Below, in pieces: positions 4,577-64,000 of a stretch of 64,000 bases of DNA. The notes under the pieces are model-generated. The model was not told where the DNA came from. It made no database searches and saw only the letters and a list, made by a program, of their open reading frames with translations. Origin of the DNA: Acidithiobacillus sp. (GTDB lineage Bacteria > Pseudomonadota > Gammaproteobacteria > Acidithiobacillales > Acidithiobacillaceae); contig JAPTWR010000171.1 of assembly GCA_028065135.1 (NCBI GenBank), positions 1 to 64,000 on the forward strand, given 5' to 3'. Position 1 is the stretch's first letter; the number at the start of each line of letters is the position of its first letter. The position numbers and the translations under genes were made by a program.

Positions 4577-5745
4577 CGGCATTCATTGAGGTCGATTACC
4601 GGTTTCCCGCCGGGGTGGACGCCCGCTCACAGGCGCAGGCCATCGCCATCGGCCAGACGGCCGGAAGCTGGGATGCGCACTTTCAGCACCGGGAGGCGCA
4701 GTTGCGCGGCCATCTGGGGAAGGTGACCGCCGTTACCGAACTGGCGGACGGGTGTCATCAGGCCACGGTGCGCTTCCCCGCCGCCAATGTGGACGGCCGC
4801 CTCGGCAGCCTGCTCACCATGATTTTCGGCAAATATTCCCTGGCGGGTCCTGCCAAGGTGGCGGCAATCCGTTTGCCGGAGCACTTCGGACGTTTGCCGC
4901 GCTTTGGGCTGGAGGGCATCCGCGCACGATTGGGGGTGCAGGAACGGCCCTTGGTCATGGCCATTTTCAAGCCGGCGCTGGGGCTGACGGCTGAGGACCA
5001 TGCCGAAATTCTGGCAAAGGTTGCCGTTGCCGGGCTGGATATCATCAAGGATGACGAAATCCTCCCGGACCTGCCGATGGCGGCGGCCCTGGCGCGCTGG
5101 GAGGCTTGTGCGCCGGTGATCGAGGCGCGGCGGGATCAGACGGGTCGTGACCTGCTCTATGCGGTGAATCTCTCGGGGGATGCACGCCAGGTGCAAACGC
5201 TCGCGCTGCAACTGGTGGCCGCCGGTGCCAATGCGCTGCTCCTGAATGTGCTGGCATATGGTTTCCCGGTACTGGAGGCGTTGGTCGCCGATCCGGACAT
5301 CGACGTGCCGATCTTCGCCCATCCGTCTCTGGCGGGTGCCTGGTGCGGCGCGCCGGATTACGGGTTTTCTTATGGGGCTCTGCTCGGTACGTTGATGACC
5401 TATGGGGGGGCCGATGCGGTGCTCTATCCGGCGCAGTACGGCAGCCTGCCCTTCGCCGCGGCGGACGAATGGGCCATCGTCGAAGCGCTGCGGGCGCGGG
5501 GCGTGGCACCGGTGCCTTCATCGGGCGTACATCCCGGCATGGTTGGGCGCATCCTCGACGACTATGGCGCGGAGGTCATTCTCAATGCGGGGACCGGGAT
5601 CATGGACCATCCCCAGGGCCCCGCCAGCGGCGTGCTGGCCTTTCGCGAAGCCATCGAGCGCTGGCAGAACGCAGCACCGCGCGCTCTGGAAGATCTGCCC
5701 GCCGGGCCCTTGCGGGCAGCGGTGGAAAAATGGGGACAGGGTTGA
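4573..5745 (+). CDS. mtnW: RuBisCO-like protein, probable 2,3-diketo-5-methylthiopentyl-1-phosphate enolase
   Basis: This is a form IV RuBisCO homologue of 390 residues. The carbamylated lysine and metal ligands are kept as K159, D161 and E162 (DIIKDDEIL). FKPALGLT around K133 and FAHPSL around H250 match the catalytic barrel. The loop-6 lysine motif of true RuBisCO is not evident, and the phosphate-binding end reads NAGTGIMDHPQG. Its place between mtnD and the HAD phosphatase mtnX argues for the enolase step of methionine salvage rather than CO2 fixation. Other RLP groups catalyse isomerisations, so the exact reaction is inferred from context. Confidence 0.85.
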   Translation: MTAFIEVDYRFPAGVDARSQAQAIAIGQTAGSWDAHFQHREAQLRGHLGKVTAVTELADGCHQATVRFPAANVDGRLGSLLTMIFGKYSLAGPAKVAAIRLPEHFGRLPRFGLEGIRARLGVQERPLVMAIFKPALGLTAEDHAEILAKVAVAGLDIIKDDEILPDLPMAAALARWEACAPVIEARRDQTGRDLLYAVNLSGDARQVQTLALQLVAAGANALLLNVLAYGFPVLEALVADPDIDVPIFAHPSLAGAWCGAPDYGFSYGALLGTLMTYGGADAVLYPAQYGSLPFAAADEWAIVEALRARGVAPVPSSGVHPGMVGRILDDYGAEVILNAGTGIMDHPQGPASGVLAFREAIERWQNAAPRALEDLPAGPLRAAVEKWGQG

Positions 5746-49800: not shown

Positions 49801-50488
49801 GCAGATCATTCTTTCCGTCGAGCATCTGCGGCAGAGCTTCGCCATTGGCCGCGAGCGTCTGGAGGTCATCCGTGACATCAATCTGCAGGTGCACCGTGGC
49901 GAACGCTTGGCGATTGTCGGCGCCTCCGGGCAGGGCAAGAGCACACTGATGCACCTCATGGGTGGCCTGGAGCGCCCGTCCGGGGGTGGGGTACGGATCC
50001 TCGGTCAGGAGGTCTACAAACTCAGCGAATCGGCGCGCAGCCGTTTGCGTAATCAGAGTGTCGGTTTCGTCTATCAGTTACATCGTTTGCTGCCCGAGTT
50101 CACGGCACTGGAGAATGTCCTGCTCCCGCTCCTGATACGCCGGGTGCCGCGTCGCTCCGTAGAACCCTGGGGCAAGGAAATCCTGACCCGCGTCGGGCTG
50201 GGTGAACGTCTGGGTCACAAACCGGGCATGCTCTCCGGCGGCGAACGGCAAAGGGTGGCGCTGGCGCGTGCGCTGGTTACCCGCCCGGCACTGCTTCTCG
50301 CCGACGAACCCACCGGCAATCTCGACAGCGAGTCGGCGGAGAGTGTCCACCAACTGATGCTCGACCTCAATCAGGAACTGGGTACCGCACTGGTTATCGT
50401 CACCCATGAGCCGGCGCTGGCGGCACACATGGAGCACGTACTCCGGCTGCAGGATGGTGTCCTGCAGCCCCTGGACGCTATGCACTAA
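49793..50488 (+). CDS. lolD: lipoprotein-releasing ABC ATPase
   Basis: LolD is the ATPase of the lipoprotein-release transporter. The 231-residue protein has Walker [17 protein letters not shown], the ABC signature [16 protein letters not shown], Walker [14 protein letters not shown] and the switch His in VIVTHEP. The sequence [17 protein letters not shown] is typical of LolD. It converges on the DUF2062 gene and overlaps it by four bases at the 3' end. Confidence 0.94.
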
Positions 50489-51045
50489 AACCGGCTGCGC
50501 TGCAGGCGACGGCGCCGCAGCCGCCACAGTATCCAGATTCGCCAGCCACCGAGTACTCCAAAGTACAGTGCCAGGGCAAGCGCCCCGCCAAGAATGATGC
50601 TGCCCAGCCAGGTGAGGAGGTAGGCATGCCAGAGGCGGTCTCCCATGGCCATTACGCTGATCTGTCCATGGACCATGGCGTGGATATCCGCATAATGAAT
50701 GGTGATGGGCGGGGCCAGCCCCAACTGGGTGAGCAGCCAGAACCCCAGTTCATAGGATGCGAAGAAAAAGGGCACGATGGTAAAGGGTCCCGTCACGATG
50801 AAAGGCATGACGACGCCGACGGGGATATAGGCGCGACGCCAGAGACTGATGAGCAGGATGCTCAGAACATGGCCAAAAAAGGGCAGGCTGCCGATAAAAG
50901 TGCCGATCGCGGCGGCACGGGCGACGTTGTGGCGATGGGGATGCCAGAGTACCGGGCGGGCCAGGTAATGGGTAAAGCGCCCCAGCGGTCGTTTGCTGAG
51001 GATGTCCTCGCGGGTGGGAAGGCGACAGAATGCAGGTAGGCGCAA
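50485..51045 (-). CDS. DUF2062 membrane protein
   Basis: The 186-residue protein has about three to four hydrophobic segments and the DUF2062 pattern. This includes VARAAAIGTFIGSLPFFGHVLSILL (amphipathic first helix) and VMPFIVTGPFTIVPFFFASYELG. Function is not established. Its 5' end overlaps the divergent comEC frame by 16 bases if the first ATG is used, so one or both starts may be internal. The lolD-DUF2062-comEC-exbBD order is also found in Pseudomonas. Confidence 0.85.
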   Translation of the reverse strand: MRLPAFCRLPTREDILSKRPLGRFTHYLARPVLWHPHRHNVARAAAIGTFIGSLPFFGHVLSILLISLWRRAYIPVGVVMPFIVTGPFTIVPFFFASYELGFWLLTQLGLAPPITIHYADIHAMVHGQISVMAMGDRLWHAYLLTWLGSIILGGALALALYFGVLGGWRIWILWRLRRRRLQRSRF

Positions 51046-53240
51046 TGCGATATTTCCTGGTTCGTAAGGGGGCTAGTGTAGCCAAGCCGCTGCCCTGGGC
51101 CAAATCCTGGCCGTCCTTACCGCTTTTGGTTATCGCGATAGGGCTGGGGCTGGGGTTTTTTCACAGCTTCCAGCAACTGCCTGCTTTGTGGATTCCGCTT
51201 GCCGTAGCGCTTCCCGGACTGCTCCTGGTTTGGAAATGGCGGCCTGCGCTGCTGCTGACCGTCGCCGCGGGGGCCTTTGCCTGGGGCGTCTGGCAGGCCG
51301 ATCTGCGCCTCGCCGTGCAGTGGCCGGTGGGGCAGGACTTCAGTGTCCGGGGGCGCATCGTTTCCATACCCCAATCGGGGGGCCGGGAATATCGCTTTCT
51401 GGTGGCGCCCGAGCACTGGTCGGCAGGGGCAGGTGCGGGCGCCCGGCCTGACACCATTCTCGTTCACGGCAATCTTCCGGAAGTCCCCGTAGTCGGGCAA
51501 CGCTGGCAGTTGCGCTTGCACAGCGAATCTCTTGCCAGCCTGCCCGGCAGCCCCTTTGCGGACCTCGCCCGGCAGCGTTTTTGGGCCGGGGAGGGCGGGG
51601 TGGCACGGCTGCAGGATGCCCGGCTGTTGCCGGTTTCCCGCGTGAATCTCCAGGACGACATCGCGGTGGCCCGTGAGGCGGTGCTCCATGCCAGCAATAT
51701 GGCCCTGAACCGCGAAGCGGCAGGTTTTGTGCAGGCGCTGAGTATTGGTGTCGGTAACCAGCTCCCGCCGGAGATCTGGCAGGTCTACCGGGATACGGGC
51801 ACCGCCCACTTGCTGGTGATCTCCGGTTCCCACGTGGCCGCGGTCGCCGGACTGGCCCTGTGGCTCGGTCAGTGGCTATGGCGGCGTATCCCCTGGCTGG
51901 TCGCTCGCTGGCCGGCGCAGACGGCGGGAGTCCTCTGTAGCATCCCGGCGGCCTGGGGCTATGCCAGTTTTGCCGGCATGCAGATTCCCGGCGAGCGCGC
52001 CGCCTGGATGATCACGGCAGCGGCACTCGCCCATCTGCTGGGACGCCCAAACAATGCTTGGCAAGGGCTGTCCCTGGCCGCCCTGCTCATCGCCTTCGGA
52101 AACCCCGGCGCGCTGGTGGATGTGGGATTCTGGCTTTCTCTGGGCGCCGTGGCCGTGTTGGTGGCCATCGGTTATGGGGAAGGCGGCTGGCGCACGTTGC
52201 TGCGCAGCCAGTGGATGGTTTCCATTGCCCTGATGCCTTTACTAGCGGGACTCTTCGGACAAGTTTCCCTGATTTCCCCGATTGCAAACGTGTTGGTGAT
52301 CCCGCTGGTCGAGATGCTTGCAGTGCCCCTGGCCTTGCTAGGCGCTTTTTTGGCACTGCTGGATCTGGAACTGCTCAGCCGCCTGCTCTTTCATCTGGTG
52401 GCGCTGGAAATGGACGCAGTGACCGCATTGCTGCGTATTCTGCTGCAGATCCCATTTGCGCGGGTCAGCACGGGTACGGGTCGCAGCTGGGCCTTGCTGG
52501 CGGCGGTGCTGGGGCTCGGCATCTTTTTTCTGCCGCCGGGCTGGCCGGGGCGCCCCCTGGCTTTGCTGGGCATGGTCCCGCTCCTGATCCCCGTCGGGGG
52601 TACCGCTGACCTGGAATTGCGTGCGCTGGATGCGGGATCCGGCATGCTGCTGTTCTGGCAGAAGGGGTCACAGAGCGGTATTTTCTCGGCAAATCTCTGG
52701 AAGGCGGCCAGTCGCCGCAGCGGCAGCCTCGCGCTTACGGCGGCGCTGCGCCAGCAGGGCGTGACACGGGTGGATGCATGGTTGCGCAGCGACATTTCCG
52801 CACCCCAGCCGCTACCTGTCGCTGTCCGTCAGTGGTGGCCGGCGGGAGCCCGCGATTATCCCGGAGGACCGCCGACATCGGCCTTCTGTCGGGCCGACGG
52901 CGGTGCACCGGCAGAGATGCATTTCCTGACCTTGAATGCACCTGTCCAGCCCTGCATAGTGACCTGGGGTGCCGGACCCGATGTGCTGATTCTGGGTGAC
53001 GCCGATGCAGCGACGATCCGTCGTCTTGTCGCGGAGCACGGCGCCGCGTTGCATCGAGCGCAGGCCATCTTTGCCCCTGCCAGTCTGGGCAACACGGAAA
53101 GAGCGGCGTTAGCGGCCGCCACAGCGCAGGCGCGGGTCTTTTATCTGGGCGAGGGCAAGCCGGGCACATGGACCTGGCAGGCCGGGCGCTTGCGTCATGC
53201 CCTGCCGCCATCGCCCGCCTACTGGCAACCCGGCGCCTGA
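51030..53240 (+). CDS. comEC: ComEC/Rec2 family DNA uptake channel with a degenerate C-terminal domain
   Basis: ComEC forms the inner-membrane channel for transforming DNA. The product of 736 residues (ATG at 51030 or 51045) has hydrophobic N-terminal helices and the OB-like DUF4131 domain (about 90-200). The competence domain has GTAHLLVISGSHVAAVAGLAL, PGERAAWMITAAALAHLLGRPNN and [17 protein letters not shown]. The C-terminal metallo-beta-lactamase-like part lacks HxHxDH and has DAGSG instead of DVGQG. It may therefore be catalytically dead. Neighbours match the Pseudomonas order. Confidence 0.88.
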   Translation: MQVGAMRYFLVRKGASVAKPLPWAKSWPSLPLLVIAIGLGLGFFHSFQQLPALWIPLAVALPGLLLVWKWRPALLLTVAAGAFAWGVWQADLRLAVQWPVGQDFSVRGRIVSIPQSGGREYRFLVAPEHWSAGAGAGARPDTILVHGNLPEVPVVGQRWQLRLHSESLASLPGSPFADLARQRFWAGEGGVARLQDARLLPVSRVNLQDDIAVAREAVLHASNMALNREAAGFVQALSIGVGNQLPPEIWQVYRDTGTAHLLVISGSHVAAVAGLALWLGQWLWRRIPWLVARWPAQTAGVLCSIPAAWGYASFAGMQIPGERAAWMITAAALAHLLGRPNNAWQGLSLAALLIAFGNPGALVDVGFWLSLGAVAVLVAIGYGEGGWRTLLRSQWMVSIALMPLLAGLFGQVSLISPIANVLVIPLVEMLAVPLALLGAFLALLDLELLSRLLFHLVALEMDAVTALLRILLQIPFARVSTGTGRSWALLAAVLGLGIFFLPPGWPGRPLALLGMVPLLIPVGGTADLELRALDAGSGMLLFWQKGSQSGIFSANLWKAASRRSGSLALTAALRQQGVTRVDAWLRSDISAPQPLPVAVRQWWPAGARDYPGGPPTSAFCRADGGAPAEMHFLTLNAPVQPCIVTWGAGPDVLILGDADAATIRRLVAEHGAALHRAQAIFAPASLGNTERAALAAATAQARVFYLGEGKPGTWTWQAGRLRHALPPSPAYWQPGA

Positions 53241-53286
53241 ACGGGGACGCCTGCACGGGCCGGTCGCTGCCGTTTCCCGGGTGATA

Positions 53287-53295
53287 TGCTATATT
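53287..53295 (+). promoter_or_regulatory. possible extended -10 promoter of exbB
   Basis: TGCTATATT fits an extended -10 (TGnTATAAT-like), about 38 bp before the exbB GTG. No convincing -35 was found. It would serve the exbB-exbD-lpxK-kdsB run. Confidence 0.35.
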
Positions 53296-53332
53296 CCGGC
53301 TTCGTCACGATCGAACGGGTTCTGGAGGCGAT

Positions 53333-53953
53333 GTGCAAGAGTTGCTGGGATTGTTCAAGTTAGGCGGATTTGTTCTGCCGATTCTTATTTTGGCGGCAAT
53401 CGTCGCTTTGGCCATCGCCGGTAATCGTCTCTGGGTCTTGCGGCGGGGACGTATTGCACCGCGTGATCTCGGGCCACGGGTTGGGGAACTGGTGGACGCG
53501 GGCAAGGTGCAGCAAGCCGTGAAGGTGCTGTATGAAAACGACACGCCCCTGGCCAGGATGATGTTGGTGGCGCTCCAGAGCGCAGGACAGCCGCGCGACG
53601 TGATCAAGGAGTCGGTGGAAGAGACCGGCCGTCATGAAGTGGCGCATCTCGATCGTTACCTCAACTTTCTGGGTAGTATCGCCGGTGTGGCGCCCTTGCT
53701 GGGTCTGCTTGGAACCGTATTCGGCATCATGCATGCGTTTGCGGCTATCGGCATGGTGGGCGCGGGCGATCCCAAGGCGTTGGCGAGCGGCATCGCCGAG
53801 GCGCTCATCACCACCGCCAGCGGTCTTATCGTCGCCATCCCCAGCCTGATGTTCTATCGCTATTTCAAAGGGCGGGTCGATGCGTTGGTGTTGTCCCTCG
53901 AAAAAGAGGCGCTGAAGCTGGTGAATCAGCTCGCCGCGGGTGCGGAAAAATGA
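53333..53953 (+). CDS. exbB: MotA/TolQ/ExbB proton channel protein
   Basis: This inner-membrane proton channel subunit couples the proton motive force to an energy-transducing partner. The 206-residue protein has a first helix (FVLPILILAAIVALAIAGNR), then a cytoplasmic loop. Two more helices contain LGSIAGVAPLLGLLGTVFGIMHAF and ALITTASGLIVAIPSLMFY, as in ExbB/TolQ. It starts at GTG behind GGAGG. It overlaps exbD by four bases. The pair is not beside tonB or tolA, so its energised partner is unknown. Confidence 0.88.
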   Translation: MQELLGLFKLGGFVLPILILAAIVALAIAGNRLWVLRRGRIAPRDLGPRVGELVDAGKVQQAVKVLYENDTPLARMMLVALQSAGQPRDVIKESVEETGRHEVAHLDRYLNFLGSIAGVAPLLGLLGTVFGIMHAFAAIGMVGAGDPKALASGIAEALITTASGLIVAIPSLMFYRYFKGRVDALVLSLEKEALKLVNQLAAGAEK

Positions 53954-54354
53954 ATCTGCGTCCGCGGGTGAGCGAAGAACCGGAGATCAATGTGATCTCC
54001 ATGGTCGATATCGTGCTGGTCCTGCTGCTGTTCTTCATGGTCACCAGCAGCTTTGTGCACCAGTCCCATCTTTCCATGGAACTGCCCAAAGCCCAGCAGG
54101 CCACCGCCGGTGAGCCGAAAACCCCTATCACCATCGACCTCAGCGCGGCCGGGCAGGTGCGTATGAACAAGCAGGTGGTGCCGATGTCCGATCTGGCCGG
54201 ACAACTCAAAGCGCTTGCCGCCAAAGATCCGGAACGGGTGATCGTCCTGCGCGCGGACAAGAATACGACGCAGCAGTACGTCATCGATGTACTGGACGCG
54301 GCGCAGGAAGCGGGCCTGACCCGGATCAGTTTCGCAACCCTGAGCAACCACTGA
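53950..54354 (+). CDS. exbD: ExbD/TolR family protein
   Basis: This is the proton-pathway partner of ExbB. The 134-residue protein has one helix (VISMVDIVLVLLLFFMVTSS) carrying the essential Asp. A periplasmic domain follows (ITIDLSAAGQVRMNKQVV and VIVLRADKNTTQQYVIDVLD). The pair precedes lipopolysaccharide genes, as in Pseudomonas, where the same order is known. The periplasmic target is not identified. Confidence 0.9.
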   Translation: MNLRPRVSEEPEINVISMVDIVLVLLLFFMVTSSFVHQSHLSMELPKAQQATAGEPKTPITIDLSAAGQVRMNKQVVPMSDLAGQLKALAAKDPERVIVLRADKNTTQQYVIDVLDAAQEAGLTRISFATLSNH

Positions 54355-54357
54355 CCC

Positions 54358-55044
54358 GTGCGGCTGGAAGGGCGCTCCTTACGCGTGGTGGCCGCACTCG
54401 CGGCTTATATCATCAAAGGTATGGCCCTCAGTGTGCGCTGGCACGAGGAGGGGGATGCCAGCGTGCGCGCCCTGATCGAGGCCGGACAGCCTTTCCTGCT
54501 GGCCTTCTGGCATGGGCGGGGTGTTATGGTCGCCCAGGCCTACCGGCGAGTGGGCGGACGTAAGATAAAAATCCTTGTCAGCGAACATCGGGATGGCGAG
54601 CTGATTGCTGCCACCATGGCACACTGGGGCTATGGTGCGGTGCGCGGGTCGACCCGGCGCGGGGCGGTCAGGGGCGCACGAGGGATGCTGCGGGCCGCTC
54701 ATGCGGGGTACGACCTGGCCATCTCCCCCGATGGTCCGCGCGGTCCCCGCGAAGTGCTGCAAGAGGGCGTTATCGAATTGGCGCGCATTTCCGGCCTGCC
54801 CATCGTGCCGGTCACCTATTCGGCACGCTGGGCGAAACGCTTCGCCAGTTGGGATGGTTTTCTGCTGCCCCTGCCGGGCGCACGTGGGGTGATCCTCTGG
54901 GGCGAACCGCTGCGGATCCCGCGCGACGCCAATACGGATACCCTGATCGCTTTGCAGCATGCGCTTGAGGCTGAGATGATTGCACTGCGGCAACGCGCTG
55001 ATGCCATGGTTGGCCGGACGGAACCGACAGGCGGGACATCATGA
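54358..55044 (+). CDS. DUF374 family lysophospholipid acyltransferase-like protein
   Basis: The 228-residue protein begins with GTG three bases after exbD. It has an N-terminal hydrophobic segment and the DUF374 pattern: LLAFWHGRGVMVAQAYRR, ILVSEHRDGELIAATM, GSTRRGAVRGARGML and DLAISPDGPRGPREVLQEG. The family is related to LpxL-type acyltransferases and probably acylates a lipid, perhaps in LPS assembly given its neighbours. The exact substrate is unknown. It overlaps the WaaA-like gene by four bases. Confidence 0.8.
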   Translation: MRLEGRSLRVVAALAAYIIKGMALSVRWHEEGDASVRALIEAGQPFLLAFWHGRGVMVAQAYRRVGGRKIKILVSEHRDGELIAATMAHWGYGAVRGSTRRGAVRGARGMLRAAHAGYDLAISPDGPRGPREVLQEGVIELARISGLPIVPVTYSARWAKRFASWDGFLLPLPGARGVILWGEPLRIPRDANTDTLIALQHALEAEMIALRQRADAMVGRTEPTGGTS

Positions 55045-56186
55045 CGTATTATGAAAGCGGTCTGCTGCGCGCGCGCTGGGCAAGCTGGCAGGATGCGCGC
55101 GCCGGACGAACGGCGCAGGCAAACGCCCGCTGGGGCTGGATCAAGGCCCCGGGCGAGCGCGGTCCGATTCTGTGGATGCAGAGCTTCAGCGATGCTGACC
55201 AGCAAAGGCTGGGTATCGAGCTGGCGAAAGCCATGGCCGAAAAGCGCCGCGACCTGCGCATGGTGATGACCTTCGAGACCGAGTACCCGGCCCTTCTGGA
55301 GCAATACACCGAAGGTGCCGAGCGGCTCGGCTATGGTTTCGGACCCTGCGACCATCCCCAGGCGGTGGGGCGGATACTGGAACGGCTGATGCCCCTGCGT
55401 TATCTGGCACTGGGCCGGGCGCCCAGACCACGGCTTGCCGCCGCCCTGGGCCGACGGAAGATTCCCGCCGTGCTGATGGCGGCTGATCCTGGCCTGCAGA
55501 TCCCGGCGCCGCTGGAGGCCGTATACCCGCGGGATGCGCGCCAGGCCGGGGCCTGGGCCGGGCGGCGGGTCACTGAAGCCGTTCAGGAACCCGTGGACTT
55601 CACCACCCTGTTCACCATCGCCCAGGTAGACCCCAATTTCCGGACGATGATCAGCGGTACCGACGAGGGCCTGCTGTGGTGGACGCAAGGGCTGAGCGCC
55701 GCCCAATGGGCCGGATGGCGGCGGGCGTGGGCCGCTTCGCCCCTGTCCCGGCACGGCTTACTGTTTCTTGGCGGTACCGGCGCGCCGGCAGATCTGCCCA
55801 GGCTGTCCGCTTGGCAGCGTGCGCCCTTGCCCGCCGGGGCGGTGGTCGTCGCCGATGATGATCGCTGGTATCCGGCCCTGTCCGCCGGAGCGCAGGCGGT
55901 GCACCTGCAGAACGCCTCCCCGATGTTGCAGTGGCAGGTTTATGCGGGCTCCCGGCCCATCAGCGTCAGCCCCGGCGTGACGCTGAACGCCGCCGAACCA
56001 TTGGATGCCGACACCATCCTCACCCTGGAGAAGCCCGCGCAAATCCTCGACCATTGGCAAGCCCTGCGTGGGGATGCCATGGCCGCCCGCCAGCGTGGTG
56101 ACGCCACCCGGCGCATTTTCTGGCAGGAACGCCGCCATGCGGGCGAACGTCTTCCGGAATTTTTACAGCGGGTTTTTGACTGGTGA
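55041..56186 (+). CDS. WaaA-like GT-B protein, divergent
   Basis: This 381-residue protein is placed where many bacteria have the Kdo transferase WaaA, just upstream of lpxK. It resembles WaaA in overall GT-B layout ([37 protein letters not shown]). However, the N-terminal GE catalytic motif and the METELWPN motif are missing; [13 protein letters not shown] stands at the latter. It may be a diverged non-catalytic partner or have another role. A standard WaaA should then exist elsewhere. It overlaps lpxK by four bases. Confidence 0.55.
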
Positions 56187-57184
56187 CCCTCCGTCAGACT
56201 CTGGAGCAGCAATGGCAGGATGGTGGTGCACTGGCCACCGCCTTGCGGCCTCTGGGGGCGCTGACCGGCAAAGTGGCGCAATGGCGGCGGCGGCACATAC
56301 AGGGCAGGGCGGCGAGTATCCCCACCATCGTCGTCGGCAACCTGGGTGTAGGAGGCAGCGGCAAAACGCCGCTGGTGGCGGCGCTGGCACGGCAACTCAC
56401 GGTAGCGGGCTGGCGGGTGGCCATCATCAGCCGCGGCTATGGTGCCCGGCCCCCGCACTGGCCCTATCGGGTGCAACGCGACGACAACCCCCAACAGGCC
56501 GGGGATGAGCCCTTGTTGCTGGCGCAGGAACAGGGACAGACCCAAGCGGTCTATCTTTGCCCCGACCGCCATCGCGCCATCGCCGCAGCGGCGGCGGATG
56601 GTTATAAACTTGCGCTACTGGATGATGGTTTCCAGCACCTCGCCCTGCAACCCAGCCTGCGTCTGCTGGTGCTCTCCGGTCCACGCCCTTTGGGTAATGG
56701 CCACTGCCTGCCGGCCGGCCCTCTGCGCGAGTGCCCGGACGCCATGCTCCATGCCGATGCTTTGCTCATGGATGCCGCCGCCACCGCAGCCATCCCGGAG
56801 CGCAACGGCGGGCCACCCCGGTTTCTTTTCCGCATCCAACCCAAGGATCTCGTCGCCGTCAACGATCCAGGCCGCTCCCGCAGCCTCGACAGTCTGCAAG
56901 GACAGCACGTAACGGCCGTCACCGGCATCGCCCGCCCGCAGCGTTTTGTCGCCAGTCTGGAGGCCCTGGGCGCCATTCCTGACCCCCGATTTTTCCCCGA
57001 CCACCACGCCTTTTGCGCCAGCGACATTGCCTATTTGCCCCGCCCCCTCGTCATGACCGCCAAGGATGCCGTAAAATGCCGGAAGTTCGCGCAGGCCGAC
57101 GACTGGACCCTGCGCATCGAAGCGGAGCTGGAGCCCTCCTTTCAGCCCTGGCTGGAGCAATCATTGCTGCCCTGGAGAAGCTGA
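56183..57184 (+). CDS. lpxK: tetraacyldisaccharide 4'-kinase
   Basis: LpxK phosphorylates the lipid A disaccharide at the 4' position. The 333-residue protein has Walker [38 protein letters not shown] (catalytic Asp and His region) and [10 protein letters not shown]. It starts at GTG within the WaaA-like stop. The next gene, a Trm112-like protein, starts on its stop. Family assignment is firm. Confidence 0.94.
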
Positions 57185-57366
57185 TGAGTATTGACCACCG
57201 CCTGCTGGACCTGCTTGCCTGCCCGCAATGCAAGGGCAGTCTGCAACCCTGTGCCCAGCGTCAGGCCCTCTGCTGTCCGCGTTGCCATCTGCAATATCCC
57301 ATCCGCGACGACATCCCAGTGCTGCTTATTGACGAGGCCAAGCCCTACGAGGACAAGCCCGCGTGA
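57184..57366 (+). CDS. Trm112-like zinc protein (YcaR family)
   Basis: This 60-residue protein has a zinc ribbon: CPQCKG at residues 14-19 and CPRCH about 20 residues on. LLDLLACPQCKGSL and RDDIPVLLIDEAK are the family ends. Relatives activate methyltransferases in eukaryotes and archaea; in bacteria the role is not settled. It is often placed between lpxK and kdsB, as here, overlapping both genes. Confidence 0.9.
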   Translation: MSIDHRLLDLLACPQCKGSLQPCAQRQALCCPRCHLQYPIRDDIPVLLIDEAKPYEDKPA

Positions 57367-58124
57367 GCTTCTGCGTCCTGATCCCCGCCCGGCTGGCATC
57401 TACCCGCTTGCCGCGCAAGGTGTTGCTGGACGTGGGCGGCATCCCCATGATCGAGCAGGTGCGGCGGCGTGCGCTGGAAAGCGGCGCAGCGCAGGTGGTG
57501 GTAGCCGCCGACCACCCTGAAGTGGTCGACTGCGTCCGCAGCTATGGCGGTGAAGCTCTGCTGACCGCCGCGGGGCATGTCTGCGGCACCGAGCGCGTGG
57601 CGGAAGCCGCGCGTCTGCTGGGACTGGCCAACGACGCCATCATCGTCAATCTGCAGGGTGACGAGCCGGGCATGACGCCCGCCCTGTTGCACGCCACCGC
57701 CCAACTGCTGCAGGATCATCCGCAGCGGCAGATGGCCACCGCCGCCGTCCCCATCACTCACTGGGATGATCTGGCCGATCCCCACTCGGTCAAACTGGTG
57801 CTCGGTGCCGAAGGCTGCGCCCAATACTTTTCCCGCGCCCCTATTCCCTGGGATCGCAGCCATTTTCCCCTCAGCAGCGGGCAGACTTTGCCGCAAACCC
57901 CAGGAATCTGGTGGCGGCATCTCGGTCTCTACGCCTACCGCAATGCCTTTTTGCAGGACTACGCCTGCTGGCCAGCCAGCCCGCTGGAATCCATCGAATC
58001 GCTGGAGCAGATGCGCGCGTTGGAGCGCGGCGTGCAGATTGCGGTATATTGCGCGGCAGAAGCGCCCGCAGCGGGTGTGGACACCGCCGCCGACCTCGAC
58101 CGCGTGCGCGACCTTTTTCCCTGA
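57363..58124 (+). CDS. kdsB: CMP-Kdo synthetase
   Basis: KdsB activates Kdo with CTP for the inner core of lipopolysaccharide. The 253-residue protein opens with VLIPARLASTRLPRKVL, the cytidylyltransferase motif. It then has VVVAADHPEVV, CGTERVAEAA, IVNLQGDEPGM with the metal-binding Asp, and YFSRAPIPWDR. The start is a GTG within the stop of the Trm112-like gene. It ends the lipid A/Kdo run started by exbB. Confidence 0.94.
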   Translation: MSFCVLIPARLASTRLPRKVLLDVGGIPMIEQVRRRALESGAAQVVVAADHPEVVDCVRSYGGEALLTAAGHVCGTERVAEAARLLGLANDAIIVNLQGDEPGMTPALLHATAQLLQDHPQRQMATAAVPITHWDDLADPHSVKLVLGAEGCAQYFSRAPIPWDRSHFPLSSGQTLPQTPGIWWRHLGLYAYRNAFLQDYACWPASPLESIESLEQMRALERGVQIAVYCAAEAPAAGVDTAADLDRVRDLFP

Positions 58125-58145
58125 TCACTCACAAGGAGTTTTTGC

Positions 58146-58667
58146 ATGGACCTGAAAAAAATCCCGGCCGGCCAGTCACTGCCGGATGACGTCAACGTCG
58201 TGATCGAGGTGCCCCAGGGTTCCTCCGTCAAATATGAACTGGACAAAGAATCCGGCGCCATCGTGGTCGATCGCTTCCTTTTCACCGCCATGCACTACCC
58301 GCTTAATTACGGCTTCATCCCCAACACCTTATCCGACGATGGTGACCCTACCGATTGTCTGGTTCTGGCACCCCAGCCCGTTGCTCCCGGCGCCGTGATC
58401 CGCGCCCGGCCGGTTGGTGTACTGATGATGGAAGACGAGAAGGGCATCGATGCCAAGATCGTCGCCGTCCCCCACGACAAGGTCGCCACCGGTTACTCCG
58501 CTATCCGGGATGTCAGCGATCTGCCCGAGCCACTGCGCCACCAGATCCGCCATTTCTTCGAGCACTACAAGGACCTGGAGCCCGGCAAGTGGGTCAAACT
58601 CAAGGACTGGGCCAGTGTGGCCGAGGCCCGCAGGATCATCGAAGCGGACGCCGCGCGCTACGCCTGA
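58146..58667 (+). CDS. ppa: inorganic pyrophosphatase
   Basis: This family I soluble pyrophosphatase has 173 residues. Conserved parts are [34 protein letters not shown], the metal triad region [10 protein letters not shown] with Asp ligands, and a second metal site in [21 protein letters not shown] lies upstream of the ATG. It is separate from kdsB by 21 bp. It is the last housekeeping gene before the integron region. Confidence 0.96.
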
Positions 58668-58731
58668 AGGTCTTGTCGCCCTGCGGTGAAGCAGGCAGAC
58701 TGAGGGTGACTCGCTTATGCAGGAGAGCCCC

Positions 58732-59112
58732 ATGTCCGCATCACCGCTGGCGCCCAAGTCCCCCTCATCGACGTCCCTCAAGCCGTCCGCCTTTACCTGC
58801 CTGCAACTCGCCGAGCCCCTCTGGAAAAGGGTCCCCAGCCGCGACGATGCCGGCCATCTCCTCTCTGATTTCCGCATGATCTTCCCCGGACTCCGCCAGA
58901 AAAGCGGTATTCGCCAGCAACACACTCTACGAATCATCAATGCCGTATTGCATCATTACGGCTCCTGGGTGGTATTTGCCGATCTCAATATGCGCACGAA
59001 TTTGCTCTGGGTGAGTATTCGTCCACGTCCTGGTTTAACGCTGGAAATTCCCGCAGCGATTAAAACGCTGGTGCCGGAAGCGTTATTATTGGCGCCCTAT
59101 TGGCGGCGGTAA
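58732..59112 (+). CDS. hypothetical protein next to the integron
   Basis: This 126-residue protein is not recognised. The start at 58732 is supported by AGGAGA five bases upstream; an earlier ATG at 58717 is possible but lies ahead of that site. It has a Ser/Pro-rich N-terminus and a compact, mixed C-terminal part (LRIINAVLHHYGSWVVFADLN, then PEALLLAPYW). No signal peptide or membrane helix was noted. It ends 21 bp before the wrecked integrase gene and may be the chromosomal boundary of the integron. Confidence 0.5.
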   Translation: MSASPLAPKSPSSTSLKPSAFTCLQLAEPLWKRVPSRDDAGHLLSDFRMIFPGLRQKSGIRQQHTLRIINAVLHHYGSWVVFADLNMRTNLLWVSIRPRPGLTLEIPAAIKTLVPEALLLAPYWRR

Positions 59113-59133
59113 TGGGTGGCAGTTATGGATGAG

Positions 59134-59560
59134 TTACATATCCAGCGGGCTGATGACGCCGCGTCCGCCTTTGCCGCAACGCACGCGCTTCGCCAGGTGT
59201 CAGCACCGTAGGCAAGTGTTGCGAAGACTTGGCGCTGGTGATGTCGTCCAGCCAGGGCAGGTTTACATCGAGCACCTGCTTTTAAAGGAAAAGCAACGCC
59301 GCCTTGGCCTGATTTTGCGGGGAGGACGACACCTTGCGCTCCACCGCCGGATAACTGAGGAATGCCTCGATCTCTGCGGCCCCCATCTCTTTGGGATGCC
59401 GCTTGCGGTGGAAGAGAATGAAGCGCCGCGCCCAGTCCGTATAGGCCTCTTCGGTGCGGATGCTGTAGTGCAACGTCCGGATCCGGCCACGCACCTGGTC
59501 CAGGAGTTTGGGTGGGGAATGGGGGGTTGGCTGGCTGCTTTTTATGCGGAGAATATTAGG
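59134..59560 (-). pseudogene. degenerate integron integrase (intI remnant)
   Basis: On the minus strand residues like [18 protein letters not shown] and [18 protein letters not shown] are the N-terminal core-binding domain of integron integrases. The frame continues through [19 protein letters not shown]. It then hits a TAA where a Tyr codon belongs and reads on in frame as KQVLDVNLPWLDD to about VLTPGEARAL. After a frameshift the last codons are GKGGRGVISPLDM and stop, the integrase C-terminus. The whole catalytic domain, including the integron-specific insert and the Arg-His-Tyr residues, is deleted. No start codon was found. It is oriented away from the cassettes, as intI normally is. Confidence 0.88.
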
Positions 59561-59572
59561 CGTCCTAAATTT

Positions 59573-59599
59573 TTGAGCAAGGGGGCATTATGCTATAGA
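59573..59599 (+). promoter_or_regulatory. possible cassette promoter
   Basis: TTGAGC and TATAGA with a 15-base spacer point toward the first cassette. The short spacing makes this a weak candidate only. A perfect TTAGG-CGT-CCTAA palindrome lies just upstream (59556-59568). Confidence 0.3.
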
Positions 59600-59667
59600 T
59601 ACAGCATGTTTACGCCGTCCTGTGTTGTATTAGTCATCTATCATGTGCTAGGGTAGCACGGTCTAAT

Positions 59668-59678
59668 TTATGTTAGGC
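59668..59678 (+). other. attI-like junction
   Basis: The G/TTAGGC core lies between the integrase remnant and the first cassette ORF; the first cassette would begin at the TT at 59673. This is the usual attI position. The outer integrase-binding sites of attI were not resolved. Confidence 0.6.
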
Positions 59679-59687
59679 ATCTTAGTT

Positions 59688-60149
59688 ATGGCGACGACTG
59701 AAGTTTTAGCATTCGATTGGGGCGTTGGCGTTCTCGGCGTCCTGGATATCAACAGCAACGAGTACATCCCGTATCATTATGGCGAAGAGATGATTCAGGG
59801 GGCAAAACGAATTGTTTCCTGCGTCGGTACCGTCGTTAGCTTCAATGGCAACAGGCGAGACTTGGAAGAAATATCAAAAATACTCGGCCTTTCGTCTGTT
59901 ATCGACTTACACATCTGTGGCGAGCACAACGATATGTTGGAAATCACTTCAGATATCCGATGGCCGCCACGCCCTGGTACTGCCCCAATCCTTGGGCCTG
60001 GTTTGCGTGAAACATATAAGCACTACTTTGGCCATCGAACGGTTGTCCCGCCTTCGCATCTAAGCGATTACGAGGCAAACAATTGGAGTGACTGTCACAT
60101 GACTGCGGAGTTGTGGAAGAAATGGAAACTTGGAAATCTTGGGCAATGA
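59688..60149 (+). CDS. cassette 1: DEDD-exonuclease-like protein
   Basis: The 153-residue product (start ATG 59688) is encoded by the first integron cassette. It is not recognised as a known protein, but three segments fit a DnaQ/RNase H-like exonuclease fold. VLAFDWGVGVLGVLD resembles motif I with one Asp, VSFNGNRRDLEEI resembles motif II, and YEANNWSDCHMTAELW resembles motif III (YxxxDxxxTxxLW). The usual second acidic residue of motif I is missing, so activity is uncertain. An earlier in-frame ATG at 59670 lies on the attI core. Its attC is split by the group II intron downstream. Confidence 0.5.
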   Translation: MATTEVLAFDWGVGVLGVLDINSNEYIPYHYGEEMIQGAKRIVSCVGTVVSFNGNRRDLEEISKILGLSSVIDLHICGEHNDMLEITSDIRWPPRPGTAPILGPGLRETYKHYFGHRTVVPPSHLSDYEANNWSDCHMTAELWKKWKLGNLGQ

Positions 60150-60168
60150 GTCACGAGACGGCGCCGAT

Positions 60169-60230
60169 ACCCAACCCATCATTCCACCGGACCTGCGCAA
60201 AAATCCGCGCAGGCCGGTGAATTCAAACGT
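60169..60230 (+). repeat. attC of cassette 1, left part (split by intron)
   Basis: The R'' core ACCCAAC at 60169 is followed by the stem CACCGG-a-CCTGCGC (60185-60198), a loop and GCGCAGGCCGGTG (60207-60219). A60191 is the extrahelical base that marks attC. The sequence then runs AATTCAAACGT into the intron. The R' half (TATGCC) lies after the intron at 62066, so the joined core reads ACG/TTATGC. Confidence 0.8.
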
Positions 60231-62065
60231 GTGCGCCGGGCATGGCGCGTTACTTCATAGGTGAAAGTCCTATGGCCAGGTCTGCAGAGCCGAAGGCAAG
60301 GAGAAGGGCAAGGGCGTCGTCGCGAGGCGGGGTCTGAAGGAAGCCCAATCCGAAACGGCGGGGCGATGAACAAAAACCGGATAGGAGGCGTGATGCATTC
60401 GGGACGAGCGGGCACGTGACCGCAAAGTCCTCCATCTGCGATTGGGTGCATTTTGTAAATCCGGCGTCTATGCCGCGAAGGTAACGTGTCTTACCCCGGG
60501 AGATCTCCCCGGTGCTTCGGAAGCTCGAAGCGGGGCGCCTGGAAACGGGCGCTGAGTACCGTGGAGAAGTCAGCAGAGGGCATATTAGGCGGCGGCCACC
60601 GCCGAAGGCCCGAACGATGGAAGACAAAGGACCATGACGAAGAGCAACGGGAACGCATCAGACCTCCGGCGCAAGCTGGCGGCGGCCATGCCGCCGGATG
60701 AACCCGTGGCTGGATCGGATGGACAACCCGAGTCGATTCCTCCCCGCGCGTTGCTGGCCCAAGTGCTGGACCGGGCCAACCTGCAACGCGCCTTGAAGCA
60801 AGTGCGCCGGAACCAAGGCGCGCCGGGCATCGACGGCATGACGGTCGATGAATTACCGGAATACCTCAAGTACCACTGGCTGGAAATCCGCGCGCAACTG
60901 GAAACGGGGCACTACCGCCCGAGCCCGGTCAAGCGCGTGGAGATCCCCAAGGGCGACGGCAAGACGCGCCCCCTTGGCATTCCCACGGTGCTCGACCGCT
61001 TTATCCAGCAAGCCATCGCGCAAGTGCTATCCGCGCAATGGGACCCCCATTTCCACCCGCACAGCTACGGCTTCCGCCCCAACCGCTCGGCGCACCAGGC
61101 GATCCGCCATGTGCAAGCCACGATTCGGCAAGGCTACGGCTGGGTGGTCGACATGGACCTGCAAAGCTTTTTTGACCGGGTCAACCATGACCGGCTGATG
61201 GCGCGACTGAAGAGTCGTTGCCCTGATACCGGCCTGCTGCGCCTGGTCAATCGCTTCCTGAAGGCGGGCGTGAGCGTCGGTGGACACATCGAGCCGACGA
61301 CGATGGGCGTGCCGCAAGGCGGCCCACTCTCGCCCGTGCTGGCCAATGTGGTGTTGGATGAACTGGATTGGGAACTGGACCGGCGTGGCCACCGCTTCGC
61401 CCGTTATGCCGACGACTGCAATATTTTGGTCCGAAGCAAACGTGCGGGAGAGCGGGTGATGGGCAGCGTGACACGCTACGTCAGCGACACACTAAGGCTC
61501 ACAGTGAATCCGCTGAAAAGCGCGGTGGACCGACCCTGGAAGCGCAAGTTTCTGGGCTTCACGGTCAGCCGCAACGACAAGAAGCTGAAAGTGGCCGACA
61601 AGGCCCTCGACAAGCTGAAAGATCGGGTGCGGGAACTAACCCGTCGTACACGAGGCAACCGCATAGAAGTGATCGCGGCGGAGCTGAGAGAAAGCCTGCT
61701 TGGTTGGAAAGCGTATTTCGGCATTGCCGAAGTACTGAGCCCTCTGCGCGACATCGACAAGGGGGTACGACGCAAGTTACGCTGCTACATCTGGAAACAA
61801 TGGGGGTCGGCGGGCTACCGGGAACTACGCAAGCGCGGGGTAACGGTGCGCGAAGCGTGGAACACCAGCAAGTCGGCGCATGGGCCGTGGCGGCTGCCGA
61901 AGACACCGGCGCTGACCATTGCATTACCATTGGCCTTCTTCAAGACCCTGGGAGTACCGAGCCTTGCAGCACGGTAAGAATTCAATTCATCGAACCGCCG
62001 GATACGTGACCCGTTCGTCCGGTGGTGTGGGAGGGAGGGGCCGTGAGGCTTCTTCCTATCCCGAT
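60231..62065 (+). mobile_element. group IIC intron inserted in an integron attC
   Basis: The 5' end is GTGCG. Domain I starts with the typical GTGCGCCGGGCATGGC, GGTGAAAGTCC and AGCCGAAGGCAAGG blocks. Domain IV holds the reverse transcriptase gene. Domain V is at about 61992-62027 (GAACCGCCGGATACG and CCGTTCGTCCGGTGGTG, CGC triad), and domain VI follows with a bulged A in CCTATCCC. Removal from 60231 to 62065 joins AAACGT to TATGCC and restores an attC core. This is the class known to target attC hairpins. The 403 bases before the RT gene are structured intron RNA, not protein coding. Confidence 0.85.
60634..61977 (+). CDS. ltrA: group II intron reverse transcriptase/maturase
   Basis: This 447-residue intron protein makes the intron mobile and aids splicing. 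Reverse-transcriptase blocks include QGAPGIDGMTVDELPEYL, PKGDGKTRPLGIPTVLDR, YGFRPNRSAHQAI, GVPQGGPLSPVLANVVLDEL and the catalytic Y258ADD. The maturase X domain follows (LLGWKAYFGIAEV and the KQWGSAGYRELRKRG segment). There is no C-terminal HNH endonuclease domain, consistent with the class C lineage. It is on the same strand as the cassettes. Confidence 0.93.
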   Translation: MTKSNGNASDLRRKLAAAMPPDEPVAGSDGQPESIPPRALLAQVLDRANLQRALKQVRRNQGAPGIDGMTVDELPEYLKYHWLEIRAQLETGHYRPSPVKRVEIPKGDGKTRPLGIPTVLDRFIQQAIAQVLSAQWDPHFHPHSYGFRPNRSAHQAIRHVQATIRQGYGWVVDMDLQSFFDRVNHDRLMARLKSRCPDTGLLRLVNRFLKAGVSVGGHIEPTTMGVPQGGPLSPVLANVVLDELDWELDRRGHRFARYADDCNILVRSKRAGERVMGSVTRYVSDTLRLTVNPLKSAVDRPWKRKFLGFTVSRNDKKLKVADKALDKLKDRVRELTRRTRGNRIEVIAAELRESLLGWKAYFGIAEVLSPLRDIDKGVRRKLRCYIWKQWGSAGYRELRKRGVTVREAWNTSKSAHGPWRLPKTPALTIALPLAFFKTLGVPSLAAR

Positions 62066-62085
62066 TATGCCGCAAGAAGGGTGCA

Positions 62086-62646
62086 ATGACTCAACCCCAA
62101 CCACTTTCGATTCTCCGCAACCATAAATGGTCGAATCTCCCTACGTCCCCTGGTGTTTACTGGTGGTATTTCCCGCGCATAGCACTTGATCATTTTCGCA
62201 TTGCCGAATTCTGTGACGTCACGAAACTACGGTTACGGACCGCGCCAGATGGCAAAGTGTGCCTCTATCACGGTTTAGCTAAGAGCATCGCACAGCGCGT
62301 GGAATGGCATGCAGCTCAAAAGTTAACATTGAGTTGCTTACAGACCGGTTTCCTCTCGACCTTCCGGTTTACTCTTCTTGCCCTGAACGACTTTGATTAC
62401 TCGGAAGGCGCGGAAAAGATCGACAAGTATTTCGACGCTCTCTCTGTCAGTTGGCGATCGACGACGACAAGGGAAGAGGCAGAATCCATCGAGTGTAACG
62501 AGCTTCATGGCGAATACCATTACCCACTCAACATTCAAGTGAACAAGCGGCCTGAACTATTAGCTTTTACCCGCCATTTGAAGGCCATGCGAAGCGCCTA
62601 CAAAAAACGATATATCAGTAGTAGTGACCATCATTGTGCGAAGTGA
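62086..62646 (+). CDS. cassette 2, gene A: GIY-YIG-like protein
   Basis: This 186-residue product (ATG 62086) begins 20 bases into the cassette. It resembles a GIY-YIG nuclease fold: SPGVYWWYFP supplies the first Tyr, and KVCLYHGLAKSIAQRVEWH supplies the second Tyr, the Gly and the catalytic Arg. GEYHYPLNIQVNKRP near the end may supply the acidic and Asn residues. Family identity is by pattern only. The next gene starts one base after its stop (TGA-G-ATG), so the two are translationally coupled in one cassette. Base composition is clearly lower in G+C than the chromosomal genes. Confidence 0.6.
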   Translation: MTQPQPLSILRNHKWSNLPTSPGVYWWYFPRIALDHFRIAEFCDVTKLRLRTAPDGKVCLYHGLAKSIAQRVEWHAAQKLTLSCLQTGFLSTFRFTLLALNDFDYSEGAEKIDKYFDALSVSWRSTTTREEAESIECNELHGEYHYPLNIQVNKRPELLAFTRHLKAMRSAYKKRYISSSDHHCAK

Positions 62647-62647
62647 G

Positions 62648-63097
62648 ATGGCAATGCAATCCAACAATTCCACTATCTATCTTGTTTCTTGTGTCAGCAA
62701 AAAACGAAATCAACCATGCGCGGCACGTGATTTGTATATTTCTGATTGGTTCATCAAGGCGCGTCGATATGCAGAATTATCTTTATATCCATGGTATGTT
62801 CTATCTGCCGAGTACGGTTTGGTTCCTTCCGATCAAATAATTGCACCATATGAGCGGACGCTCAACACGATGAGGGTGGTGGATCGCCGTTCTTGGGCCG
62901 ATCATGTATCCCTTCAAATCTCGGAAGCCGCTCCAGACTTGAAACAAGTGGTGTTCTTGGCCGGTGTGCGGTATCGTGAGTTCTTGACCCGCCACCTTTC
63001 CGATAGGGACGTAAAAGTATCGATCCCAATGGAAGGACTGCGAATCGGAGAGCAGCTGAGTTGGCTTTTACAGCACACCTCGTTGTCTGTAGATTAA
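62648..63097 (+). CDS. cassette 2, gene B: DUF6884-like protein
   Basis: This 149-residue product (ATG 62648; an in-frame GTG at 62624 would overlap gene A) has the pattern IYLVSCVSKKRNQPCAARDLY, FIKARRYAELSLYPWYVLS, AEYGLVPSDQIIAPYE and VVFLAGVRYREFL. From memory this matches DUF6884, a family of unknown function with a conserved Cys-Ser-Lys-Lys loop. It is paired with the GIY-YIG-like gene in one cassette and is followed by a complete attC. Integron cassettes often carry defence or toxin functions, so a role with nucleic acids is plausible but unproven. Confidence 0.6.
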   Translation: MAMQSNNSTIYLVSCVSKKRNQPCAARDLYISDWFIKARRYAELSLYPWYVLSAEYGLVPSDQIIAPYERTLNTMRVVDRRSWADHVSLQISEAAPDLKQVVFLAGVRYREFLTRHLSDRDVKVSIPMEGLRIGEQLSWLLQHTSLSVD

Positions 63098-63107
63098 TGG
63101 TCAAGCG

Positions 63108-63167
63108 GCCGAACAATTCATTCAATCCGACGCCGCTTCGCGGCGCGGCTTAATTCAAATGTTAGGC
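63108..63167 (+). repeat. attC of cassette 2
   Basis: R'' GCCGAAC at 63108 and R' GTTAGGC at 63161 flank the hairpin GCCGACGCCGC-TTCG-CGGCGCGGC with AATTCATTCAA and TTAATTCAA arms. This is a textbook attC site; the next cassette begins at TTAGGC. Confidence 0.93.
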
Positions 63168-63190
63168 ACCAAGGAACAATAGACACGACG

Positions 63191-63640
63191 ATGCAACTTA
63201 CTTCTGCAAATACTTCGGACATCCCAGCACTTTGCGCATTGCTGGATATCTTGTTTTCTCAAAAAGCAGAGTTTAAACCCGATCACGAAGCACAAAGCCG
63301 TGGCTTAGCTCGCATCCTTAGCAATCCAGAAATTGGGCTTATCGTTGTCGCTCGTCAAGACAGCCAAGTGATCGGTATGGTTAATCTTCTCTACACAGTA
63401 TCTACGGCGCTCGGCGAGCGCGTCGCGCTACTGGAAGATATGGTAGTGTCCCCCGCCGCTCGCGGCGCTGGTGTTGGTTCTCGGCTCCTGGAGCAAGCTA
63501 TTCAATTCGCGCGCTTGAACGGGTGCAAACGCATTACCTTGCTCAGAGACTGCGCGAATGAATCAGCGCAACGATTTTATCAAAGGCATGGTTTCGGTTT
63601 TTCGGCCATGATCCCTCTTCGTCTTTCGCTGGGCGAATAG
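63191..63640 (+). CDS. cassette 3: GNAT acetyltransferase
   Basis: This 149-residue GCN5-related N-acetyltransferase starts 29 bases into the cassette. The acetyl-CoA motif is VALLEDMVVSPAARGAGVGSRLLEQAIQFA (Q/RxxGxG/A as ARGAGVG). The C-terminal ITLLRDCANESAQRFYQRHGF is the usual family strand and helix. The substrate is unknown; it need not be an antibiotic. GNAT genes are among the most common integron cassettes. Confidence 0.88.
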   Translation: MQLTSANTSDIPALCALLDILFSQKAEFKPDHEAQSRGLARILSNPEIGLIVVARQDSQVIGMVNLLYTVSTALGERVALLEDMVVSPAARGAGVGSRLLEQAIQFARLNGCKRITLLRDCANESAQRFYQRHGFGFSAMIPLRLSLGE

Positions 63641-63648
63641 GTTGCTAT

Positions 63649-63711
63649 GCCTAACATGGCATTCGAGCGAGACGCGCCAAAAGCGGCGCGCCCCTCAACT
63701 TTACGTTAGAC
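63649..63711 (+). repeat. attC of cassette 3
   Basis: R'' GCCTAAC at 63649 and R' GTTAGAC at 63705 flank a hairpin built from GACGCGCC and GGCGCGCC with a loop of AAAAGC. The next cassette starts at 63706 with TTAGAC. Confidence 0.9.
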
Positions 63712-63783
63712 CGCCAATGGGGAATCGTTGACTTCATTCGGGAACGGCTCAGACTCTATTTCTAACTACGATGGAGGACCATC

Positions 63784-64000
63784 ATGACCAAGATCGCAAA
63801 GAACACGATTTGCCTTTGGTACGAACGCGATGCCGAGGAGGCGGCGCTATTCTACGCCAAGACCTTTCCCGATTCGTCCGTCGGCGCGGTGCATCGCGCA
63901 CCGGGCGACTTTCCGTCGGGCAAGCAAGGGGACGTATTGATAGTCGAGTTTACCGTGATGGGTATACCCTGCTTGGGGCTGAATGGCGGACCCGCGTTCA
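63784..64000 (+). CDS. cassette 4: VOC superfamily protein, 3' end outside window
   Basis: The frame starts MTKIAKNTICLWYERDAEEAALFYAKTFP, with GGAGG eight bases before the ATG at 63784. It runs off the window at 64000 after 72 codons. The pattern fits the PhnB-like or 3-demethylubiquinone-methyltransferase-like group of the glyoxalase/VOC fold: IVEFTVMGIPCLGLNGGPAF is the usual second strand. VOC proteins are frequent in integron cassettes. Its attC lies beyond the window. Confidence 0.8.
   Translation, partial: MTKIAKNTICLWYERDAEEAALFYAKTFPDSSVGAVHRAPGDFPSGKQGDVLIVEFTVMGIPCLGLNGGPAF

Follow-up and report, generated by a model that had tools for sequence, protein, structure and literature searches.

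A GIY-YIG nuclease and a DUF6884 protein paired in an integron cassette of Acidithiobacillus: a candidate two-component DNA-targeting system

Introduction

Proteins of the DUF6884 family (PF21818) are widespread and carry no assigned function; their relatives, YaaA and DpdC, are linked to DNA damage and to modified DNA. Here we describe an integron cassette at 62066-63167 of a 64,000-nucleotide stretch of an Acidithiobacillus genome (assembly GCA_028065135.1, contig JAPTWR010000171.1; hereafter the window), in which the gene for a GIY-YIG nuclease (gene 1) is directly followed by the gene for a DUF6884 protein (gene 2). The association of DUF6884 with nucleases is recurrent, rearranged and in places fused, and provides a concrete, testable hypothesis for the role of this family.

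YaaA (DUF328, PF03883; about 257-287 residues) co-purifies with DNA, and a passage of PMC4834066 states that mutation rates are higher in its absence. DpdC acts on 7-deazaguanine bases in DNA, finishing them, and has DpdA and DpdB as partners. With regard to DUF6884 itself, one section of the Pfam paper (PMC11701544) gives CxxxK and LSAxxG as the family motifs and places a Bacillus subtilis member among the reported interactors of abasic and RNA-base lesions.

The GIY-YIG enzymes, which include UvrC, T4 EndoII, Eco29kI and I-TevI, have an active site composed of two tyrosines, an arginine, a glutamate and an asparagine. Among systems catalogued for defence, a close entry is PDC-M57 of PADLOC, where we take "PDC" to mean phage-defence candidate; its M57A component is DUF6884, and it has a further component, M57B. 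The idea of a base-sensing part combined with a nuclease has a counterpart in modification-dependent (type IV) restriction, for example in the wH-GIY-YIG enzymes, which, according to PMC11037411, depend on N6-methyladenine and sense it by a winged helix, not by DUF6884.

Results

The two proteins of the cassette

A Pfam profile search assigned the product of gene 1 to PF20815 (E 7e-21) and found no further domain besides GIY-YIG. Its predicted fold is that of GIY-YIG domains, the nearest being the one of UvrC. Across 25 aligned sequences of the nuclease, Y25, Y61, E139 and N149 are invariant and R71 is present in at least 90%; by correspondence to I-TevI and UvrC, these five are presumably the catalytic residues. 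Gene 1 has the fold and the Y/Y/E/N residues in common with UvrC, T4 EndoII, Eco29kI and I-TevI, but differs from them in sequence, as a search against solved chains yielded no significant match. Among the PADLOC profiles it matches no family, PDC-M57B included. Judged by its predicted fold and aligned residues, the protein is a GIY-YIG nuclease with its catalytic residues kept, for which metal-dependent cutting of DNA is predicted. A GIY-YIG-like pattern had been noted in the first-pass annotation of the window, made from the letters alone; both the fold and the Tyr and Arg residues agree with it.

The product of gene 2 matches PF21818 over positions 1-134 of the 135-position profile (E 5.1e-49, 166.3 bits against a cut-off of 30) and PDC-M57A at 4.6e-42. 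It carries the motifs C15xxxK19 and L52SAxxG57, of which C15, K19, L52, S53 and A54 are invariant in 25 aligned DUF6884 sequences and G57 is variable. The earlier placement of this protein in a DUF6884-like family with a Cys-Ser-Lys-Lys loop is borne out by the profile match. The predicted fold resembles YaaA and the archaeal protein AF0587. The protein scores 19.9 of the 204 bits set as the cut-off of the YaaA equivalog PRK02101, and nine aligned YaaA sequences lack the Cys of CxxxK. This Cys is common to DUF6884 and DpdC, which also has the CxxxK, SA-x-x-G and Tyr positions of gene 2. The similarity to DpdC is partial: its profile matches weakly (8.9e-6) and only over positions 48-103 of 312, the full DpdC frames compared have 310 and 318 residues, and neither DpdA nor DpdB, nor any other Dpd gene, is encoded in the cassette, whereas we would assign DpdC on a full-length profile match with dpdA and dpdB as neighbours. 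Conservation of both Cys and Lys argues for chemistry on a base by DUF6884, as opposed to mere reading of it.

Recurrent pairing and fusion

The pairing of the nuclease with DUF6884 is well supported by sequence comparisons of several kinds. Six contig loci encode a relative of gene 1; in all four that are not cut by a contig end (from Acidobacteria, Undibacterium, Nitrospira and Armatimonadetes), DUF6884 is directly next, the GIY match of the Nitrospira locus being split across two frames. The pair is also present in G001, the nearest of the genomes searched, and in G017 of the same genus, so that DUF6884 follows the nuclease in six of six uncut related loci.

In the protein database, gene 1 has 237 relatives and gene 2 has 1130. 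We inferred a shared contig from equal contig size among the 120 matches listed per gene, with an expectation obtained from shifted sizes; the test took in 119 of the 120 listed DUF6884 contigs. Among these matches, 31 of the 119 distinct sizes for gene 1 recur for gene 2 (2.7 expected), as do 17 of 62 when contigs longer than 2500 bases are considered (0.28 expected). The distances of the two proteins are correlated (r 0.85 over 23 pairs, a value reached by none of 5000 permutations), and remain so without the loci L055 and L056 of the two related genomes (r 0.84). Seven of these pairs come from loci and the window and 16 are inferred from equal contig size; one of the 17 same-size pairs (3177) was excluded because two GIY matches share that size, and the distance for L003, where GIY is split over two frames, is that of a shortened protein. 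Among the window, G001 and G017, the rate of nonsynonymous change (dN) is below that of synonymous change (dS) for both genes, with dN/dS of 0.34-0.51 for GIY and 0.10-0.20 for DUF6884, values drawn from only 8-33 base differences in each comparison.

In two Rhodococcus plasmids, a 441-residue protein combines DUF7662, DUF6884 and GIY_YIG_2 in one chain. A search with this protein returned 1163 matches, and 119 of the 120 listed bear both PF21818 and PF20815; because both domains are present in the query, this figure speaks for a common and stable fusion and does not measure how frequently DUF6884 is fused. Rhodococcus, Nocardioides, Micromonospora, Pseudonocardia and Intrasporangium are among the taxa of the listed matches. 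These actinobacterial fusions have the two Pfam families of the cassette, its Tyr, Glu and Asn residues and its CxxxK and LSA motifs: all 120 listed matches retain the residues at G23, Y25, Y61 and G63, 119 that at E139 and 118 that at N149, and in the DUF6884 part C15 is found in 116, K19 in 119 and S53 in 120. They differ from the cassette in being a single chain with DUF6884 first, in the additional DUF7662, and in that R71 is unmatched as aligned (A in 119 of the 120), S91, T92 and R94 being kept in all. On these comparisons the two types of protein probably work together. The first-pass annotation had suggested a functional pair, and as far as the pairing is concerned, the co-occurrence in uncut loci, the correlated distances and the fusions support it.

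Nucleases and defence genes beside DUF6884 on plasmids

Plasmid contexts were viewed for 21 of 78 DUF6884 records, a choice made for diversity and not by random draw; it includes near-duplicates (L069/L116, L110/L111 and L112/L123). A nuclease adjoins DUF6884, or is part of the same protein, in eight (L068, L070, L109, L112, L115, L120, L123, L124), with nuclease-like annotations farther off (e.g., L071, L072, L113) left uncounted. The nuclease is of the GIY-YIG type in six of the eight, of which L109 is a weak match (0.014) and L070 is assigned by record name. In L124, 268 bases separate the start of an HNH gene from the DUF6884 gene ahead of it, which is apparently short. A PDC-M57B partner is found in one context (L114) and a Dpd-type partner in three (L108, L110, L111). 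The plasmid regions L127-L129, reached through a search with the partner protein, stand outside the count of 21. Altogether, the nucleases accompanying DUF6884 on plasmids are of several kinds, i.e., HNH, GmrSD-type and GIY-YIG.

A separate GIY-YIG family, for which BLASTP gave no similarity to gene 1, lies beside DUF6884 in Tolypothrix, where the nuclease gene comes first, and in three haloarchaeal plasmids, where the order is the reverse; a relative of it in Haladaptatus has no annotated DUF6884 adjoining. A Hachiman-like set, made up of HamA (2e-47) and an annotated DEAD/DEAH helicase, comes after the pair in two archaeal plasmids; another archaeal plasmid has GmrSD ahead of the pair. In the haloarchaeal plasmid regions L120:2022-4429 and L128:1589-4861, the DUF6884 and GIY-YIG genes overlap and lie directly upstream of the Hachiman-like set.

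Discussion

Proposed function

In our opinion, there is about an even chance that the pair is a two-component DNA-targeting nuclease, made up of a base-recognising or base-processing DUF6884 protein and a cutting GIY-YIG protein and directed most likely against phage or other foreign DNA. The DUF6884 protein would bind DNA and take a flipped base into a pocket made by the CxxxK and LSAxxG motifs, where a non-ordinary base, either modified or damaged, would be recognised or chemically processed. The GIY-YIG protein, recruited by DUF6884 or acting after it, would then cleave the strand through its Tyr/Arg/Glu/Asn site. The likeliest use would be that of a modification- or lesion-dependent, restriction-like module against phages or other incoming DNA, borne here by a mobile integron cassette. 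We infer a shared substrate for the two proteins, the sensing or alteration of a base by DUF6884, and cleavage of foreign DNA as the output. An anti-phage role is plausible, because three archaeal plasmids have HamA with an annotated helicase, or GmrSD, next to the pair, and because gene 2 matches PDC-M57A.

The genomes that carry the pair bear on its likely target. One DpdA model was run against six of them: in three, its matches are confined to the gene for the ordinary tRNA transglycosylase, in the other three it has none, and each of the six has a single TGT-family match. No 7-deazaguanine self-mark is therefore expected there from known enzymes, which makes foreign or damaged DNA the more likely target. 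Foreign DNA is favoured by the sporadic distribution and the mobility of the module, by its varied types of nuclease, and by its place among defence genes in archaeal plasmids.

Several results weigh against the proposed two-component nuclease. In 48 viral loci with DUF6884 (L007-L054), a search with two GIY-YIG models gave no partner gene. Of the phage records, three of 14 were viewed. Nine of the 21 plasmid contexts (L069, L071, L072, L113, L116, L121, L122, L125, L126) have no nuclease, PDC-M57B or Dpd partner. Among 398 Pseudomonadota, GIY_YIG_2 is present in a further four genomes and no others; the stretches inspected in these four contain no DUF6884.

A more specific version of the proposal, which we hold to be unlikely, is that DUF6884 is a DpdC/ArcS-type Cys/Lys enzyme that recognises hypermodified bases of phage DNA, such as 7-deazaguanine derivatives or similar ones, and attacks them chemically, after which GIY-YIG cuts the processed site. 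Distributed among bacteria and archaea on integrons and plasmids, this two-step restriction would act on phages that evade ordinary restriction enzymes through their modified DNA.

Alternative explanations

The main rival to the reading of foreign DNA is lesion repair, fairly unlikely in our estimate. The cassette would then be a mobile repair module in which DUF6884 locates abasic sites, ribonucleotides or oxidised bases and the GIY-YIG protein, in the manner of UvrC, makes an incision next to them, the benefit being damage tolerance instead of defence. The UvrC domain is indeed the closest fold of the nuclease, and the lesion-interacting B. subtilis protein and the mutation rates attributed to YaaA absence, both cited above, would suit such a role. 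A repair function fits less well with the patchy distribution of the pair (two of the 29 genomes of the family), with partners that vary among GIY-YIG, HNH and GmrSD-type nucleases, and with the defence genes that neighbour the pair in archaeal plasmids. The same host genomes bear on a modification-restriction system of the 7-deazaguanine type, in which DUF6884 would be a short DpdC-like nitrile or amide enzyme acting on host DNA and GIY-YIG the matching restriction enzyme: the cassette has no DNA transglycosylase, and with only tRNA-type TGT matches in the hosts, self-marking would need another supplier. We consider this improbable, even with the DpdC profile match, the Cys that DUF6884 shares with DpdC and not with YaaA, the fusion of DUF6884 to a DpdA-like domain in Nostoc, and its overlap with dpdB in Variovorax.

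An addiction cassette, with GIY-YIG as toxin and DUF6884 as antidote, is highly doubtful. Integron cassettes often carry toxin-antitoxin pairs, the two genes are short and coupled, and a HicA-like frame was seen by eye upstream of the pair in G017. The DUF6884 motif, on the other hand, is enzyme-like and conserved, DUF6884 occurs alone and with several types of nuclease, and a single-chain fusion is unlike a toxin with a separable antidote. A toxin with its regulator had been among the first suggestions for this locus, for which no evidence was found in this analysis. That the genes are neighbours by cassette history alone and have separate jobs is very improbable: each family does occur without the other, but the six of six uncut loci, the correlated distances, the swapped gene orders and the fusions all oppose it, and the fusions, as read from sequence, nearly refute it.

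Relation to described systems

Both parts of the pair are known families. The first-pass annotation singled out the pair as a candidate for an undescribed system; this has to be qualified, as DUF6884 is already in PADLOC-DB as PDC-M57A, and the fused architecture is recorded in Pfam/JGI annotation, where one JGI annotation names the fusion. It stands to the extent that a literature search by title and start of abstract, mostly outside subscription journals, found no publication on the pair among the matches listed, nor the name PDC-M57. The main text of DefensePredictor (PMC13092281) names neither DUF6884 nor GIY-YIG; among its references are two papers that deal with integrons carrying phage defence. 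Gene 1 lacks the match expected of an M57B component. A weak GIY-YIG signal (0.22) is present in one relative of PDC-M57B, and in another the eye picks out a GIY-YIG-like pattern. Should the pair turn out to protect against phages whose DNA is modified, the restriction repertoire would gain a new base-sensing module, borne by an integron cassette.

Layout and mobility of the cassette

The features of the cassette and its flanks are collected in Table 1. As the first-pass annotation had it, this is a cassette of two genes with one attC, the genes being one base apart: both frames are present, a single base separates the nuclease stop TGA (62644-62646) from the DUF6884 ATG, and the attC lies downstream with none between the genes. 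Most aligned relatives begin at the equivalent of ATG 62654, and the true DUF6884 start may be there, 6 bases downstream; GTG 62624, the start of the longest frame, is less likely. An automatic attC scan of 50001-64000 yielded only the attC of the next cassette. That of the pair, identified by eye, escaped it because its left box departs from RYYYAAC.

Table 1 Features of the pair cassette and its flanks
Feature	Position	Strand	Details
Group II intron, IIC-attC type by our reading	~60231-62065 (ends by eye)	+	Rfam RF02001 60316-60489, RF01998 60531-60610
Intron-encoded reverse transcriptase/maturase	60634-61977	+	447 residues; RVT_1 PF00078 6.3e-39, GIIM PF08388 2.4e-14
GIY-YIG nuclease gene (gene 1)	62086-62646	+	186 residues
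DUF6884 gene (gene 2)	62648-63097 (ATG 62648 to stop)	+	149 residues; possible start 62654
attC of pair cassette	63108-63167	+	60 bp; left box GCCGAAC, right box GTTAGGC, by eye
Next cassette, GNAT acetyltransferase	63191-63640	+	PF00583 8.4e-21; own attC 63649-63711

The intron at the left border of the cassette divides the R' box of the upstream attC (border sequence read by eye), so that the left end is less clear-cut than the right. The coordinates 62066-63167 accordingly fit a cassette that has the intron inserted in its upstream attC. The intron maturase is outside the functional pair. Shortly upstream of the cassette region, at 58667, lies the end of ordinary chromosomal genes (LpxK, cytidylyltransferase, pyrophosphatase).

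In the window, G001 and G017, the pair is accompanied by a GTTRRRY box at the same distance from the DUF6884 stop. The left flanks differ among the three; on the right, the GNAT cassette is common to the window and G001 and different in G017. The pair thus moves as a unit into different neighbourhoods, as a cassette does. In G001, the change on the left extends into the nuclease gene, where about the first twelve codons are replaced and the frame is still open. In G017, the HicA-like frame mentioned above is at L055:1181-1505. No GTTRRRY box was found within 180 bases downstream of the pair in L001-L004, so that the pair may travel there by other means. At L002:5075-8995 (Undibacterium), an integrase-like frame, recognised by eye, starts beside a tRNA-Met gene (5075-5151), and the pair is found about 1.6 kb beyond that frame, which suggests that this pair is within an integrative element.

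Other arrangements of DUF6884

In G183, a 372-residue NOV_C-domain protein that matches PDC-S36 of PADLOC overlaps the DUF6884 gene. At L114:2952-4270 (Deinococcus plasmid), DUF6884 is followed by PDC-M57B, whose annotated start is seemingly late, with in-frame stops before it; this M57B gene is possibly broken. At L108:1383-2950 (Variovorax plasmid), dpdB and a short DUF6884 gene overlap, with type I-E cas genes preceding them; the stretch contains no long DpdC, and it may represent a reduced Dpd arrangement. At L110:1520-2938 (Nostoc plasmid), and by the same layout at L111:1520-2938 (Trichormus), DUF6884 and a DpdA-like domain lie in one protein, possibly a one-chain enzyme of 7-deazaguanine DNA modification.
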